Source of the DNA: Deltaproteobacteria bacterium HGW-Deltaproteobacteria-1
GTDB taxonomy: Bacteria > Desulfobacterota > Syntrophia > Syntrophales > Smithellaceae
Assembly (NCBI GenBank): GCA_002840635.1
Contig: PHBN01000003.1
Coordinates: 1-38,116, forward strand
DNA: 38,116 nucleotides
Direction: 5' to 3'
Shown here: in pieces, positions 4,492 through 38,011 of the stretch
Layout of the letters: each line of letters opens with the position of its first letter
Position numbering within the stretch: the first letter of the stretch is position 1
Made by a program: the position numbers and the translations under genes
Notes under the pieces: model-generated
Told to the model about the DNA's origin: nothing
The model's database searches: none
What the model saw: the letters and a program-made list of their open reading frames with translations, nothing else

Positions 4492-4743
4492 TCACCCGTG
4501 CACTGCATCAATCTTTTTCAAAACAGGATCATCAGCCAGAAATATATTGGTGGTTTCCGTTTCATCATCATAAACTAGAACCGCCGATCCACTTTCAAGT
4601 TTGGATTTTACCTGCCTGATGCTTGTTTCCAGGGAAGCCTCAATTCCGCCGTAATCAGTTCCGCTCCTGGAAATGAATTCCTCCATGACTCCCTGCAGGG
4701 CCTTCGCGCTGAGTTTATTTACGGGAATTATATGGATTGACAT
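4492..4743 (-). CDS. YheU/UPF0270-like small protein
   Basis: HIIPVNKLSAKALQGVMEEFISRSGTDYG..EASLETSIRQVKSKLESGSAVLVYDDETETTNIF resembles YheU (IPW..L...TL..LIE.FVLREGTDYG...SLE.KV..V..QL.SGEA.LV.....ET.NI). Confidence 0.7.
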   Translation of the reverse strand: MSIHIIPVNKLSAKALQGVMEEFISRSGTDYGGIEASLETSIRQVKSKLESGSAVLVYDDETETTNIFLADDPVLKKIDAVHG

Positions 4744-4793
4744 TTGAACCTGCTCCGTAAATAAAGACGTGATGTAATCACCATATCATTTCT

Positions 4794-5048: not shown

Positions 5049-5225
5049 TTATGTTGATCGCTTCTGCATAGACAATTGAACCTGTTTCATTTCTTCTAAT
5101 AACTCTTGCTTGGATATTAATCCCTTTCTATCAAGAAGATTGATCAGCGCCTCCGATTGAATTACTTCCGACATGAGCAATTCTTTGAAATCGACGGTCT
5201 GTTTCTGGTCTAGTTTCTCGGCCAT
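5049..5225 (-). CDS. Small hypothetical protein (58 aa) containing an iteron-identical sequence
   Basis: MAEKLDQKQTVDFKELLMSEVIQSEALINLLDRKGLISKQELLEEMKQVQLSMQKRST; shorter than the ORF-track cut-off. Confidence 0.55.
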   Translation of the reverse strand: MAEKLDQKQTVDFKELLMSEVIQSEALINLLDRKGLISKQELLEEMKQVQLSMQKRST

Positions 5226-20960: not shown

Positions 20961-21095
20961 AATTATAATAGTGATATCATGATTTAATAAATATTATTAT
21001 CCACTTACGCTGTCCGGTGATATCGTCAATAGCCACTTGATATCATGGTAACTATATGATTTAATAACTTAATCCAGATGCGTGATATCGCATCT
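20961..21095. promoter_or_regulatory. Repeat-rich intergenic region, candidate oriT and/or relaxase operator
   Basis: TGATATC at 20972, 21018, 21038, 21083; 12-bp direct repeat ATGATTTAATAA at 20979-20990 and 21056-21067; directly upstream of the relaxase. Confidence 0.45.
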
Positions 21096-24284: not shown

Positions 24285-24733
24285 ACTGCAATCCTTTCCA
24301 AAATAATAGAATTTTTATTGTTGTGTATGCGGGGTTCCATGTTTGCCCTGAAACGATTACCCGAAGATCGATAATATGCTGGGGTCAGCGAAGAGAGTTC
24401 AGTGTTATTTTTTTTGTGTTTTCTGAGCCACGTTAAAACGCAATCGACGTGTTTTCTGCCTTTTTCCTGGATAAGTATCTCTGCGCCGGGTTTTATAAAA
24501 TCTATTACCCTTCCCTTCTCATATTCATTGAGTGCCCTAAGGATTAAAATCTTGAATCGACGGGTTCCATACGTGCTGTAAGTTTTACTGAGAATGCAAA
24601 ATACGCTGTCGGGCTTGAAACCAGCCAGAGTGTTGTTTTCACCGGGGGTAATCACTTCAAAATCCGGCATTCCGAAAACAAGCTTGTTTTGACCCGAATT
24701 GTTAGAAAATAATTGAACTGTCGTTATAGGCAT
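24281..24733 (-). CDS. DUF2840 protein
   Basis: LVFGMPDFEVITPGENNTLAGFKPDSVFCILSKTYSTYGTRRFKILILRALNEYEKGRVIDFIKPGAEILIQEKGRKHVDCVLTWLRKH...NRFRANMEPR; internal start MPITTVQLF favoured. Confidence 0.72.
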   Translation of the reverse strand: MPITTVQLFSNNSGQNKLVFGMPDFEVITPGENNTLAGFKPDSVFCILSKTYSTYGTRRFKILILRALNEYEKGRVIDFIKPGAEILIQEKGRKHVDCVLTWLRKHKKNNTELSSLTPAYYRSSGNRFRANMEPRIHNNKNSIILERIAV

Positions 24734-24939
24734 GGCATACCTTTCCGTAGTTAATAGTATGTGCTGTGCAAAAGTGATTGTTGGTGAATTAATGATCTGG
24801 GGCGGATATAGAGCAAACCATGTGCCAGGTGAATAATTTGTCTCGCATATTTTATGCAACTTATGAATTATAAATATGAATATTTGATTAATGCCTGCAT
24901 TGTGTTATTTTTTATGGGTAAATAGTAAACATTTTTGAC

Positions 24940-24992
24940 TTACCAAGTAACCGTGTTGGCTTACCTGGTAAGTCCGGAGAGTTATCTAGTAA
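24940..24992. promoter_or_regulatory. Three 11-bp palindromes at 21-bp period, operator candidate for the transfer operon
   Basis: TTACCAAGTAA (24940-24950), TTACCTGGTAA (24961-24971), TTATCTAGTAA (24982-24992). Confidence 0.7.
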
Positions 24993-25118
24993 CTCTGACA
25001 TGCCCCTAGGACGTCGTTTTTTTATAAGGAGCCCTTGGTATTAGAAAATGGCATTAAAGGCCTCTAGGCTTAAAATTTAAAGCCTGAGCCATACAATTGC
25101 ATAATCTCTGGGTCGAAT

Positions 25119-25192
25119 TCCCCGCCGCTCGCGGCGAATAGAATGATAGCTCACGGAGATACCCCGCTGCTTGCGGCGGGGAGTTTCATTTT
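25119..25192. repeat. Paired GC-rich hairpins (REP/BIME-like or terminator)
   Basis: CCCCGCCGCTCGCGGCG and CCCCGCTGC-TT-GCGGCGGGG followed by AGTTTCATTTTTT. Confidence 0.55.
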
Positions 25193-25291
25193 TTATAAAA
25201 ATTACATATCTTATATATCTTTAAAATCTTAAGAGGATTTATTAATCTTCATGTGTTGTAAGTAATTAATATTGATAAAAAATAAACAATA

Positions 25292-25988
25292 AACAGGTTC
25301 AATTGTCACACTTTTCAGGTTTAATTGTCATAATTTTCAGGTTTGATTGTCATAATAAGCAGGTTCAATTGTCTAAAGTTTCAGGTTCAATTGTCTAAAC
25401 TTTATCTATTCCTTCAACAAACAAGGAAAAAGCAGAAAAAAAACAGGTTCAATTGTCTAAACTTTTTTTATCTCTTAAATTATCCCTCTCTCTTGGCTTT
25501 GCTTGTGTGTTATGTGGTATGTAGTTGTATTTATTAATGTTTTTTATATAGATATCTAGTATAATCTAATAATATTAATTCGTTGAGGCGTTGGATGATA
25601 TCTATTCGATCAGTAAAAAGACAGTTAACAGGTTCAATTGTCTAAACTTTTTAGTTGTTTAAATAAAAAATTCAAGACACATTAAAAACATATAAAACAA
25701 CAATAATAATAATAATTTACATATTAAATAGCACCCAGAAACAGGTTCAATTGTCTAAACTTTATTGGAATTCCAATAGAAAGAAACAAATGGATGTAAT
25801 ACAATAAATCATCAATAATTAAGGTTAATTATATATTCAACAGAGCCTGAAAACAGGTTCAATTGTCTAAACTTGTCAGTATTTTTATACCAGGAAGCTA
25901 ATAAGGAAAATAGTTAATATTTTAATAATAAAAGATAGTTATCTATTAATAAGCAGGTGGAAACAGGTTCAATTGTCTAAACATTTTT
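25292..25988 (+). repeat. oriV: Iteron array: 10 copies of AACAGGTTCAATTGTCTAAACTTT-like repeats (probable vegetative origin)
   Basis: CAGGTT(C/T)(A/G)ATTGTC starts at 25294, 25316, 25338, 25360, 25382 (22-bp period), then 25444, 25629, 25742, 25854, 25964. Confidence 0.9.
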
Positions 25989-26912
25989 TAGGGTTTTCAT
26001 GTTTTTCTTTGTCACAATATGATCTTTCTTGTTTATTTTCCCATATTCAAAATACCCCTGCGAATGGAGTTCTTTTAAAGATTTATTAATTTTTTTTCTA
26101 AGTTCAAATTTTTGTTGAGTTTTATCAAGATTAATCGCGTCACATAATTTGTCGATGTGAATTTCAAAACTAACCGGTTGCCCTTCATAAAATCTGTACA
26201 TGGCTTTTGTGATGTCGCCCTTCAAGCCCGCCCGAAAATCAAGATCGATGCTGGTTATCAGGCCTTCTAAATAAATTCCTCCAAAATATTCGTCAATTTT
26301 AATATCAAAATTAAATTTATTGTATTTGACATGGCTCAGGATGTGATTTGATAAGCCTGTTTTAATGGTGTCTTTCGATTTTATTGTGATCTTAACAAAT
26401 GTTCCCGTAAGACGGTCCAGAGAAGACCGCACCGCATTATAAGTGTTTTTGCCGGAAGTTGTTCCCATGATGCCCAAAAGCTCATGGAATGTTGTTGTAT
26501 ACATGAAAGATTTGTTGATGGTTGCAAGTTTTAAAACTCCCAACAGGACGGATTCATCAAACACTGATAAACGTTCACCTTGAAGCTCCATGGTCCCCCA
26601 GGGATTGTTGAACATCTGTTTTACAATAGCCCTGCTCCCCATTTCTGATCTGGACATGGGGGAAAATGGGCTGATACGGGTCATCTCGTTTGGGAGAAAA
26701 GAAAACGTTAATTGTTCATGGGGGCTTTTCTCTATGATTTCTTTTTTTAATTCATTGACGCCTTTTTGGATCAGGATTTTTTCAACGGCCAGGGCCCTTT
26801 CCATTTCCGCCCGCCGCCGGGGGTCGTTAGACAGCAACGTTTTCATATTTTCAATGGATGCAATAATATCGGGGTCAAGTCTTTTCGGGTTGGAGGCGTC
26901 TCTATCCGGCAT
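25977..26912 (-). CDS. Plasmid replication initiator (TrfA/RepA-like)
   Basis: LSVFDESVLLGVLKLA...TTFHELLGIMGTTSGKNTYNAVRSSLDRLTGTFVKI..., winged-helix initiator pattern; adjacent to iterons and parA. Confidence 0.85.
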   Translation of the reverse strand: MPDRDASNPKRLDPDIIASIENMKTLLSNDPRRRAEMERALAVEKILIQKGVNELKKEIIEKSPHEQLTFSFLPNEMTRISPFSPMSRSEMGSRAIVKQMFNNPWGTMELQGERLSVFDESVLLGVLKLATINKSFMYTTTFHELLGIMGTTSGKNTYNAVRSSLDRLTGTFVKITIKSKDTIKTGLSNHILSHVKYNKFNFDIKIDEYFGGIYLEGLITSIDLDFRAGLKGDITKAMYRFYEGQPVSFEIHIDKLCDAINLDKTQQKFELRKKINKSLKELHSQGYFEYGKINKKDHIVTKKNMKTLKNV

Positions 26913-26930: not shown

Positions 26931-26992
26931 ATAGTATCTATAGTTACCATAATTAGTATAGTAACTATAGTAAACATACTAATAATACTTAT
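26931..26992. promoter_or_regulatory. ATAGTA/TACTAT repeat cluster (operator/centromere candidate), left side of par
   Basis: ATAGTATCTATAGTTACCATAATTAGTATAGTAACTATAGTAAACATACTAATAATACTTA. Confidence 0.6.
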
Positions 26993-27264
26993 TTCTGTTT
27001 AATGGCTTCCTCAATTGCCTCAATGATGTAAGTGTGAATTGATTTGTGTGAATCAAAAGCAATTTGCCGAACCTTTTCGTGCAAGGCTTTTGTCATTTTA
27101 AGAGGAAACTGCACGGGCCCTCGCGGAGCCGTTTTCGGTCTGCCCCGCCTCGCCTGCCCTCCGTCCGCTTTAGCGTTATCAATCCACGTATCAATTTCCC
27201 TGTCGGTCTTATCATCAATCAGCTTTTTTTTCTCTAAAATGTTTTTTTTAAGTGCTATAGCCAT
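26989..27264 (-). CDS. Small ParB/ParG-like partner of ParA (basic, RHH-like C-terminus)
   Basis: RRGRPKTAPRGPVQFPLKMTKALHEKVRQIAFDSHKSIHTYIIEAIEEAIKQK; overlaps the parA 3' end. Confidence 0.7.
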   Translation of the reverse strand: MAIALKKNILEKKKLIDDKTDREIDTWIDNAKADGGQARRGRPKTAPRGPVQFPLKMTKALHEKVRQIAFDSHKSIHTYIIEAIEEAIKQK

Positions 27265-27905
27265 TTCATTAATTCCTCCCATAATGATTTAATTTCAGAA
27301 GCCGCCCTTCCGTCTGCGTCAGAATATTCCGACACACCCATGCCGTCGTTAATGGATCTCTTGTATGCCGTACGATGGTGCAAGACGGTCTTCAATCGTT
27401 CTATTTTTTTGCCGTTGATTTTGAGACCTTCCAGTGCTTCGCCGATGTCTGCAGCGAGCCTTGTCTTAGCGACCACCTGGTTCAGTAAAATTCTGGATTC
27501 GATGGGGATAATCGTGTTGACCTCGCTCAGGGCTGTGATGGTGTCCTCTGTCGCCCAGACATCGTATGGGCTGGGCAGGACAGGTATGATAAAGAGATCC
27601 GCGGCGGTAATTGCACCGCGAAAGGTGCGTGCGTCCCGGCCTCCAGCATCAATCAGCACAAGGTCAAAATCCTTGAAGGTTTTCACATCATGCCGGATGG
27701 TGTCTTTCACGATGGCTACAGCTGAAAATTGAGGCAATATTTCATTATTGCTGCGGATCTCCCGGAACACCATGGACGACGCCTGGATATCCGCGTCAAT
27801 TAAAAGAGTTTTAATTCCCCCCTTAGTGGCCTCAACTGCCAAATTACACGCAATCGTGCTTTTCCCAACGCCTCCCTTACTGCTGCCAATGGTGATGACT
27901 TTCAT
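27255..27905 (-). CDS. parA: ParA-family partition ATPase
   Basis: KVITIGSSKGGVGKSTIACNLAVEA deviant Walker A; LLIDADIQASS; DLVLIDAGGRDAR. Confidence 0.96.
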   Translation of the reverse strand: MKVITIGSSKGGVGKSTIACNLAVEATKGGIKTLLIDADIQASSMVFREIRSNNEILPQFSAVAIVKDTIRHDVKTFKDFDLVLIDAGGRDARTFRGAITAADLFIIPVLPSPYDVWATEDTITALSEVNTIIPIESRILLNQVVAKTRLAADIGEALEGLKINGKKIERLKTVLHHRTAYKRSINDGMGVSEYSDADGRAASEIKSLWEELMKWL

Positions 27906-27927: not shown

Positions 27928-28112
27928 AATGTGGTAACAATAGAATTTATAGTAACTATACTAATTATTAATAGTATTGCAACTATAAATAGTATCATTA
28001 TGGTTGCTTTTCATCCGTTTGCCTGACATTTACTTCTTACCTATTCCGATGATTAAACATTAATACTATGATAATCAATGTAATTATAGTATCTATAAAT
28101 ATTAGTATATGT
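27928..28112. promoter_or_regulatory. ATAGTA/TACTAT repeat cluster upstream of parA
   Basis: TATAGTAACTATA at 27948-27960 (identical to 26957-26969); ATAGTATCTATA at 28086-28097 (identical to 26931-26942). Confidence 0.6.
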
Positions 28113-28191
28113 CAAGAAAATAAATTAACGAGGGATAACCGGATAACACCGATCAGCAGATTGTGTTGCATTTTTAGTATGTTGCTGTTAA

Positions 28192-35388: not shown

Positions 35389-35718
35389 TTAAAGAACGTT
35401 GACCGTCCATATCGGTGCTACGACAAAGCCAGTATGAACACGTTTACCCGTATCAACAAACAAGCCGGAAGCAAGCGCAGCCTTCGCAAACGGCTCATTT
35501 TCACTCCACGTTTTAACAAGAATCTCATTTGTCTGTAAATGGATGTGAGGAAGACAAACCGTTAAAGTGCCAAACGGTTCCCCATTTGGTAAACATCCAA
35601 AGATCGCCAGCTGATTTCTTCTTTCATAAAAATCAGTATTCAAAACAACGTCATACTTCTGGCCAAAAACGTCAACCTCTAATAATTTCCCATTTATAAA
35701 ATTTGCCGCATTTTTCAT
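35389..35718 (-). CDS. DUF4313 protein
   Basis: GEPFGTLTVCLPHIHLQTNEILVKTWSENEPFAKAALASGLFVDTGKRVHTGFVVAPIWTV. Confidence 0.8.
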   Translation of the reverse strand: MKNAANFINGKLLEVDVFGQKYDVVLNTDFYERRNQLAIFGCLPNGEPFGTLTVCLPHIHLQTNEILVKTWSENEPFAKAALASGLFVDTGKRVHTGFVVAPIWTVNVL

Positions 35719-35722
35719 TGTT

Positions 35723-35821
35723 TATTTCTCCTTTCGATTTAAAATGGTTTTCCTTACAAAACATTTTTAAAAACCAGCTTCGCATTGGAAGCGGCCCCCA
35801 GGGCGAAAAGGACGCCAGAGG
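35723..35821. repeat. 99-bp direct repeat, copy 1 (leader of DUF4313 gene)
   Basis: tatttctcctttcgatttaaaatggttttccttacaaaacatttttaaaaaccagcttcgcattggaagcggcccccagggcgaaaaggacgccagagg, same as 38018-38116. Confidence 0.95.
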
Positions 35822-35837
35822 GAGGGGCAGGGGATGA

Positions 35838-35855
35838 GGGAAGATATATCTTCCC
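35838..35855. repeat. 18-bp perfect palindrome
   Basis: GGGAAGATATATCTTCCC. Confidence 0.7.
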
Positions 35856-35981
35856 TGGGCTTCCCCGACGAATTTAAAAAGGGGCTGTTTTAAAAGAGAT
35901 TAAATGAAATGGTTTTAAGTCGAAATAATAGCCTCCGTTCCTTGGTAGGGAAGGGCAACGGATTAACGGCTTTAAATTCAA

Positions 35982-37159: not shown

Positions 37160-38011
37160 TCAAGCCTCGTTGTGGCAAAGTATAAAATCGGTGGCCTTTT
37201 GTGCTTGTGCAGCGGCCAGGATGACCATTTTCGGGTCGTCTTTTAACTTCTTTAACCATGACTTTATATAGGCCGCACTATTATCAATGGTTTTGTTGTC
37301 TATCTGGCAATGGCCACATAAAAAGGCCGCTCCCATTTCAGCCACAAGTTCTTCTTTGCTATAGTCTTGCGTTCCGAAAGCTGCGATGCCGCTAATAATT
37401 CCTTTTCTATTTAAGCGGCTCTCGTGGCCTGTGCTGTGTGTTAGTTCATGGAAAAGCGTGCTGTAATATTCTTCTGATCCGTCAAAGGTTTCCATCTTAG
37501 GCATATTAACACGGTCTTTTGAGGGGATATAATAAGCTCGTTGGTCGTTGTAAGTAATTTCCGGACGTTTGGGCATGGCCATAACGACGGTTTCGCATTG
37601 TGCCATTTTCTCCAGGTCGTTATATTTAACAGCCATCGCCGGGATCTTACGTTCGTCTAATCCTTCAAGTTGTCCGATATTAAAAACGGTGTAATATCGT
37701 AAAAAAGGAAAATGGTCGGCAGACAGGTTTCCTTCTTCGTCGGTTTTGTTCATCCATTTCCAGAAAATAACGGGAGTTCCTTTTTCTCCTTTTTTCACCA
37801 TGCCGCCAAGCTCAAGCGCTTGTTTGAAGCTCACCCAATAAGGGGAACTGTAACCCATTGCGTTGAGGATGAAAACATTAACCCCTCTGTATTCTTTCTT
37901 TGTGATTAGGTTTTTCGGGGCTTCGCCGCCTGTCCACGGTTTATGCCAAGGAATGGTCCCTTGTTCTAGTTTATCGATAATACGTGCGGTGATGATTTCT
38001 TCGATTTTCAT
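37160..38011 (-). CDS. ardC: ArdC-like antirestriction protein (ssDNA-binding N-terminal and zincin C-terminal domains)
   Basis: IITARIIDKLEQGTIPWHKPWTGGEAPKNLITKKEYRGVNVFIL...; HELTHSTGHESRL zincin motif; ELVAEMGAAFLCGHCQI. Confidence 0.93.
   Translation of the reverse strand: MKIEEIITARIIDKLEQGTIPWHKPWTGGEAPKNLITKKEYRGVNVFILNAMGYSSPYWVSFKQALELGGMVKKGEKGTPVIFWKWMNKTDEEGNLSADHFPFLRYYTVFNIGQLEGLDERKIPAMAVKYNDLEKMAQCETVVMAMPKRPEITYNDQRAYYIPSKDRVNMPKMETFDGSEEYYSTLFHELTHSTGHESRLNRKGIISGIAAFGTQDYSKEELVAEMGAAFLCGHCQIDNKTIDNSAAYIKSWLKKLKDDPKMVILAAAQAQKATDFILCHNEA

Follow-up and report, generated by a model that had tools for sequence, protein, structure and literature searches.

A predicted plasmid origin with a phased iteron cluster and outlying iterons downstream of a divergent Rep_3/TrfA-like initiator gene

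Introduction

One of the closest described counterparts of the locus analyzed here is the origin of the IncP-1 plasmid RK2. It possesses 10 iterons, of which iterons 5–9 form an initiating cluster of five that acts positively, and loss of either of the solitary iterons i1 and i10 raises the copy number about two-fold; i10 is conserved across IncP-1 (PMC6961859). The RK2 initiator TrfA prefers at least two binding sites, and it no longer binds cooperatively to sites offset by half a helical turn (PMC4980987). Deletion analysis of the pSN1216-29 minireplicon revealed that iterons together with AT-rich DNA located 3′ of repA constitute a working oriV (PMC6232296). A control iteron set is found 3′ of rep in the F and FIB plasmids, and the FIB set is predicted to handcuff the upstream set (PMC11983097). 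In the gonococcal IncP-1-type plasmid pEP5289, trfA is followed by eight repeats within 400 bp (PMC2848598).

Here we report ten repeats, their positions and spacing, the homology of the adjoining initiator gene rep, and a layout conserved in its relatives. The window, meaning the whole stretch of DNA that was analyzed, comprises bases 1–38116 of a 40,868-base contig. The sequence-only reading that preceded our analysis had taken iteron origins to be normally contiguous, which overlooks RK2; the two-regime layout of clustered and outlying copies is already known in outline from that plasmid. The present locus contributes a divergent replicon whose probable origin can be placed within a few hundred bases. 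It comes from bacteria for which genetic tools are scarce, and it offers a natural system in which initiating iterons could be told apart from copy-limiting ones.

Ten iterons lie 3′ of the initiator gene

The array is composed of 10 same-strand repeats, five clustered and then five solitary, all located 3′ of rep. Iteron-regulated theta plasmids of the Rep_3 superfamily are marked by a winged-helix Rep initiator and, beside its gene, by at least three repeats on one strand phased at about two helical turns; the five clustered copies show this phasing.

25294–25403, plus strand: core cluster of five iterons (25294, 25316, 25338, 25360, 25382) with an exact 22-bp period
25444–25465, plus strand: solitary iteron, 62 bp past the last cluster copy
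25629–25650, plus strand: solitary iteron, 185 bp past the preceding copy
25742–25763, plus strand: solitary iteron, 113 bp past the preceding copy
25854–25875, plus strand: solitary iteron, 112 bp past the preceding copy
25964–25985, plus strand: solitary iteron, 110 bp past the preceding copy and overlapping the rep stop codon

These starts and intervals agree to the base with those claimed from the sequence alone. Read on the rep strand the repeat is GACAATTGAACCTG, and the last iteron, TGTTTAGACAATTGAACCTG, contains GTT TAG, the end of rep with its stop codon. A repeat-family search around rep found neither an iteron nor a second iteron set 5′ of the gene. An identical 19-nt stretch, CAGGTTCAATTGTCTAAAC, is common to all five solitary copies. 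The clustered copies had been described as the degenerate ones, which is correct for the core of the copies at 25316 and 25338 and incorrect for those at 25294, 25360 and 25382, each with a perfect 14-nt core.

With up to three mismatches allowed, the window contains 17 matches to the repeat versus 4.4 ± 1.9 in shuffled sequences, and none of 100 shuffles reached 17. A PWM built from the same 10 array copies that it scores gives them 22–40 bits, and 200 simulated 37-kb sequences never reached 17 bits. Within its own 3.3-Mb assembly, the 14-mer at up to one mismatch occurs on this contig only. A search of GTDB genomes with the 19-mer returned three single-copy matches in Bathyarchaeota MAGs, about the chance expectation and with no arrays, and the 19-mer was found neither in viral contigs nor in 155 other genomes of the order. 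No known RNA element is indicated, since an Rfam search gave nothing.

The initiator is probably a divergent member of the Rep_3/TrfA group

25977–26912, minus strand: rep, encoding a 311-aa Rep_3/TrfA-like replication initiator, assigned by profile match and homology and transcribed toward the array

The Rep protein matches PF10134 with an E value of 5.6e-05 and 23.3 bits, under the 27-bit cut-off, and has no match to PF07042 (TrfA) at E ≤ 0.01. Related plasmid initiators are 23–30% identical by tblastn, and the nearest relatives in the alignment, among them annotated plasmid initiators, are 25–31% identical; these relatives match Rep3_N and more distant ones match TrfA models. Judged by the PF10134 match, the plasmid relatives and their own Rep3_N and TrfA matches, Rep is therefore probably a divergent member of the wider Rep_3/TrfA group. 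A pattern search recovered no close Rep relatives from GTDB genomes or viral contigs, there were no nucleotide relatives among plasmids, and a profile search of the PDB returned no relevant match; the single-sequence structure model has a pLDDT of 35.5.

Elements beside the cluster

25200–25293: candidate DNA unwinding element (DUE), 94 bp, 16% GC, adjoining the cluster
25116–25185: inverted repeats rich in GC, next to the AT-rich stretch; their right part is a terminator-like hairpin on the plus strand
25651–25961: three AT-rich spacers of 85–88 bp with iterons between them, about 18–25% GC, weakly similar to one another

Placement of the DUE is uncertain because the spacers (18–28% GC) are about as AT-rich as the proposed element (16% GC). 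DnaA boxes are usual in iteron plasmid origins, although they are neither universal nor strictly defining. A scan of 24600–26000 found no DnaA box at up to one mismatch from TTATCCACA, and exact boxes are present in some of the relatives.

Comparison with described origins

The locus resembles the RK2/RP4 oriV in its 10 iterons with a five-copy core and outlying single copies, in an AT-rich DUE (here a candidate) beside the core, in the accompanying P-type trb conjugation genes, and in a Rep protein of the wider Rep_3/TrfA group. The repeat has GACA.TTGA in common with the RK2 iteron TGACA(G/C)(A/T)TGAGGGGC; the window sequence AGACAATTGAACCTG is alike in the 5′ half and differs in the 3′ half. 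Unlike RK2, the window has a Rep without a PF07042 match, iterons directly after rep, no detected DnaA boxes, and five separate outliers with three intervals at about 111 bp. The repA-oriV region of pSN1216-29 similarly has iterons directly 3′ of rep and AT-rich DNA farther downstream, but its four tandem iterons have another sequence, it has three DnaA boxes, and no dispersed copies are described. In pEP5289, repeats also follow the initiator gene (trfA), although the initiator is a TrfA/IncP-1 member and the repeat sequence is different. RepFIB and mini-F incC share iterons 3′ of rep, which there act in handcuffing-type copy control (PMC11983097); however, those plasmids have a second, originating iteron set 5′ of rep, and none was found 5′ here.

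The nearest named relatives of the Rep protein, encoded by Lawsonia plasmids 1 and 2, Desulfolutivibrio p1 and Solidesulfovibrio pDCAR5 (25–31% identity), come from replicons arranged like the window: the iterons are 3′ of rep, one copy sits at the rep stop codon or runs across it, and there is a 22-bp cluster; the Lawsonia plasmids have solitary copies too. In contrast to the window, the four have other iteron sequences, gaps of 118, 132 or 231 bp or none, and no ladder of about 111 bp.

The two-regime layout recurs in related replicons

We ran one repeat finder around rep in 19 replicons with related initiators, the window included. In 14 of the 19 (window included) the array starts within −53 to +21 of the rep stop codon, and its copies follow each other at about 22-bp steps. 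The array is contiguous at the rep stop in eight of the 14, the Xanthomonas replicon having one more lone copy 425 bp farther along. In the other six, again counting the window, the copy at the stop codon stands apart from the cluster by 44–231 bp or more: 132 bp in Lawsonia plasmid 2, 118 bp in Lawsonia plasmid 1, 231 bp in Desulfolutivibrio, 140 bp in G267 and 44 bp in G145; in the window, four further solitary copies lie between the stop-codon copy and the cluster. No array was found around rep in four of the 19 replicons. Trichlorobacter lovleyi pIAE1 has 15 copies of GAACAAAGAGTCGCA at irregular intervals of 22–230 bp, located 5′ of its TrfA-like gene, about 90–1340 bp upstream of the rep start. 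A 7663-bp contig of another genome (G072) has two iterons at the rep stop; it is suggested to be a complete small circular plasmid because parA is cut at both ends with overlapping sequence.

The iteron sequence differs in most of the 14 replicons, as expected of co-evolving initiator/site pairs; in one neighbor, G225, the iteron core is GACAATTGACCC versus GACAATTGAACC in the window. The well-supported branches of the tree require that replicons switched between a contiguous and a split array three times or more. Across these sequences the layout of cluster plus outlier is real and recurrent, with an interval that is free to vary. A practical rule follows from the 19 replicons: the origin should be sought directly after the rep stop codon.

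A model for origin opening and copy control

Very probably, the plasmid's own initiator binds these repeats to start replication, and the region is most likely the oriV. The earlier reading of these putative Rep sites as iterons of a Rep-dependent origin is supported. We put at about 0.8 the probability that 25200–25988 is the vegetative origin of a conjugative plasmid, with a predicted Rep-binding core cluster and copy-limiting outliers. Rep binding, melting and copy control are what we infer from this arrangement. Rep, encoded just upstream, would bind the repeat, its monomers binding cooperatively at the five helically phased copies of 25294–25403, and the Rep-bound core would melt the neighboring 94-bp stretch. 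The five outliers, from 25444 to the copy in the rep stop codon, would serve chiefly to sequester Rep (titration) and to form pairs with Rep-bound cores, either on the same plasmid or on a sister plasmid (handcuffing), thereby limiting copy number. A division between opening and copy control had been proposed from the sequence alone; it matches RK2, and the layout recurs in relatives. It is the best reading, and one with precedent, because in RK2 five iterons initiate and i1 and i10 lower the copy number.

The main competitor, somewhat unlikely in our judgment, accepts the origin and its iterons but regards the scattered copies as mostly debris of a duplicated unit of about 112 bp whose spacers have drifted, with little effect on copy number. 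The similarity of the spacers and the variable spacing in relatives speak for it.

The three long spacers had been described as dissimilar; however, the global alignment scores of the spacer pairs exceed those of dinucleotide shuffles (P 0.001, 0.025 and <0.001), and the pairs are also more alike than natural AT-rich windows (P 0 to 0.013). This residual similarity suggests a duplicated iteron-plus-spacer unit rather than tuned spacing, and it would explain the even steps between the copies bounding these spacers (S3–S5). Three neighboring intervals within 3 bp of each other have a P of about 0.002 under random placement. On the simplest account, a unit was duplicated in tandem, after which its spacers drifted and its iterons were preserved; 25651–25961 is a probable remnant of this, and the regularity of about 111 bp is probably an accident of duplication. 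That the spacers diverged strongly but changed little in length sits slightly uneasily with this account. The interval itself is not conserved, since the gaps vary among relatives (132 and 149; 118, 82 and 90; 231; 140; 44; 425 bp). The sequence-only reading had named irregular distances in relatives, beforehand, as a finding that would count against it; irregular distances are what the relatives have, and 110–113 bp as a functional period is not supported. As a separate point, the intervals of 110, 112 and 113 bp correspond to 10.5–10.8 turns by hand arithmetic and have no consistent helical phase.

Duplication probably accounts for the spacing, but the idea that the copies are debris is opposed by their sequence. 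The five solitary copies retain the identical 19 nt, whereas little more than random similarity is left between the spacers, so the solitary sites are apparently under selection or homogenized. Isolated outlying iterons are also seen in other replicons, those of Lawsonia and Xanthomonas among them.

The roles might instead be reversed, the dispersed copies with their AT-rich spacers being the active origin and the 22-bp cluster a control locus of the incC/incA type. It is in favor of this that the dispersed copies are nearest to the consensus, that the spacers are only 18–28% GC, and that F and FIB plasmids have their control iteron set 3′ of rep (PMC11983097). We nevertheless consider it very unlikely: the 22-bp cluster is constant across relatives and the outliers are variable, binding of the TrfA type requires two or more sites in phase, and there is no second iteron set 5′ of rep. 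That the repeats are a partition site for an RHH ParB-like protein rather than Rep sites is hardly credible, for although parA and an RHH-like gene are adjacent, a distinct 9-bp-stepped repeat in the par promoter regions is the better candidate, and in relatives whose neighboring genes differ, the arrays are still placed after the rep stop codon.

The most interesting by-product of the analysis is the conserved iteron at the rep stop codon. It is conceivable, if distinctly unlikely, that this iteron is a general control element of the initiator group, and that Rep bound there may couple rep expression to origin looping, for example as a transcription roadblock; in the plasmid of the window the element would have been extended into a ladder of copy-control sites. 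We entertain this because the copy stays at the end of rep when the array moves (six replicons, at least three changes). We found no description of a stop-codon iteron as a rule in the open-access literature.

Plasmid setting and minor observations

The contig encodes P-type conjugation genes, including trbE, trbI and trbL types, a coupling protein and a topoisomerase, as well as a relaxase, whose match to the RlxS model falls short of the cut-off. Inspection by eye also picked out ArdC-like, SSB-like and HU-like proteins. The contig ends have no terminal overlap that would prove circularity. On the minus strand the gene order is parA, an Arc/RHH-like gene and rep, with the plus-strand repeats next.

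26931–26993: 9-bp-stepped ATAGTNNNN units in the interval separating rep from the RHH gene, not iterons
26989–27282, minus strand: gene for a 97-aa Arc-like/ribbon-helix-helix (RHH) protein, with weak PHROG matches and a position after parA
27255–27905, minus strand: parA partition ATPase gene, by profile match
27940–28122 (27940–28000 and 28054–28122): further ATAGTNNNN units in 9-bp steps upstream of parA

The 97-aa protein is a probable ParB-type centromere-binding protein, and the ATAGTNNNN arrays are likely to be its operators or parS. Half-sites related to ATAGTNNNN are present at 21047 and at contig position 39791. Segments of about 57–112 bp are repeated with 97–100% identity at window positions 35712–35878 and at contig positions 38005–38270 and 39132–39240. 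They surround small genes close to the end of the contig and adjoin a run of N, so the assembly there may be unreliable.

Two iteron-like sites, 332 bp apart, are located 20 kb from the origin.

5069–5088, minus strand: exact match to the iteron over 20 bp, located in the 3′ end of a 58-aa ORF (5049–5225, minus strand), of uncertain status
4739–4752, minus strand: iteron-like 14-mer (one mismatch) covering the start codon of a YheU-family ORF (4492–4743, minus strand), uncertain

Both stand out from the background; for the match at 5069–5088, none of 200 simulations reached 17 bits. Homologous genes nearly spell the match at 5069–5088 through their codons (EMK-R/K-VQ..M), and the match is partly explained by coding, the 58-aa ORF being a conserved small gene. 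Distal iterons are not a general rule: no copies were present outside the origin in five relative plasmids scanned, four of them whole and the fifth over 50 of its 58 kb.

Three 11-bp near-palindromes (TTACCAAGTAA, TTACCTGGTAA and TTATCTAGTAA), 21 bp apart, occupy window positions 24940–24992. They lie upstream of a DUF2840 gene, which precedes the topoisomerase gene, and are probably operators of some regulator.
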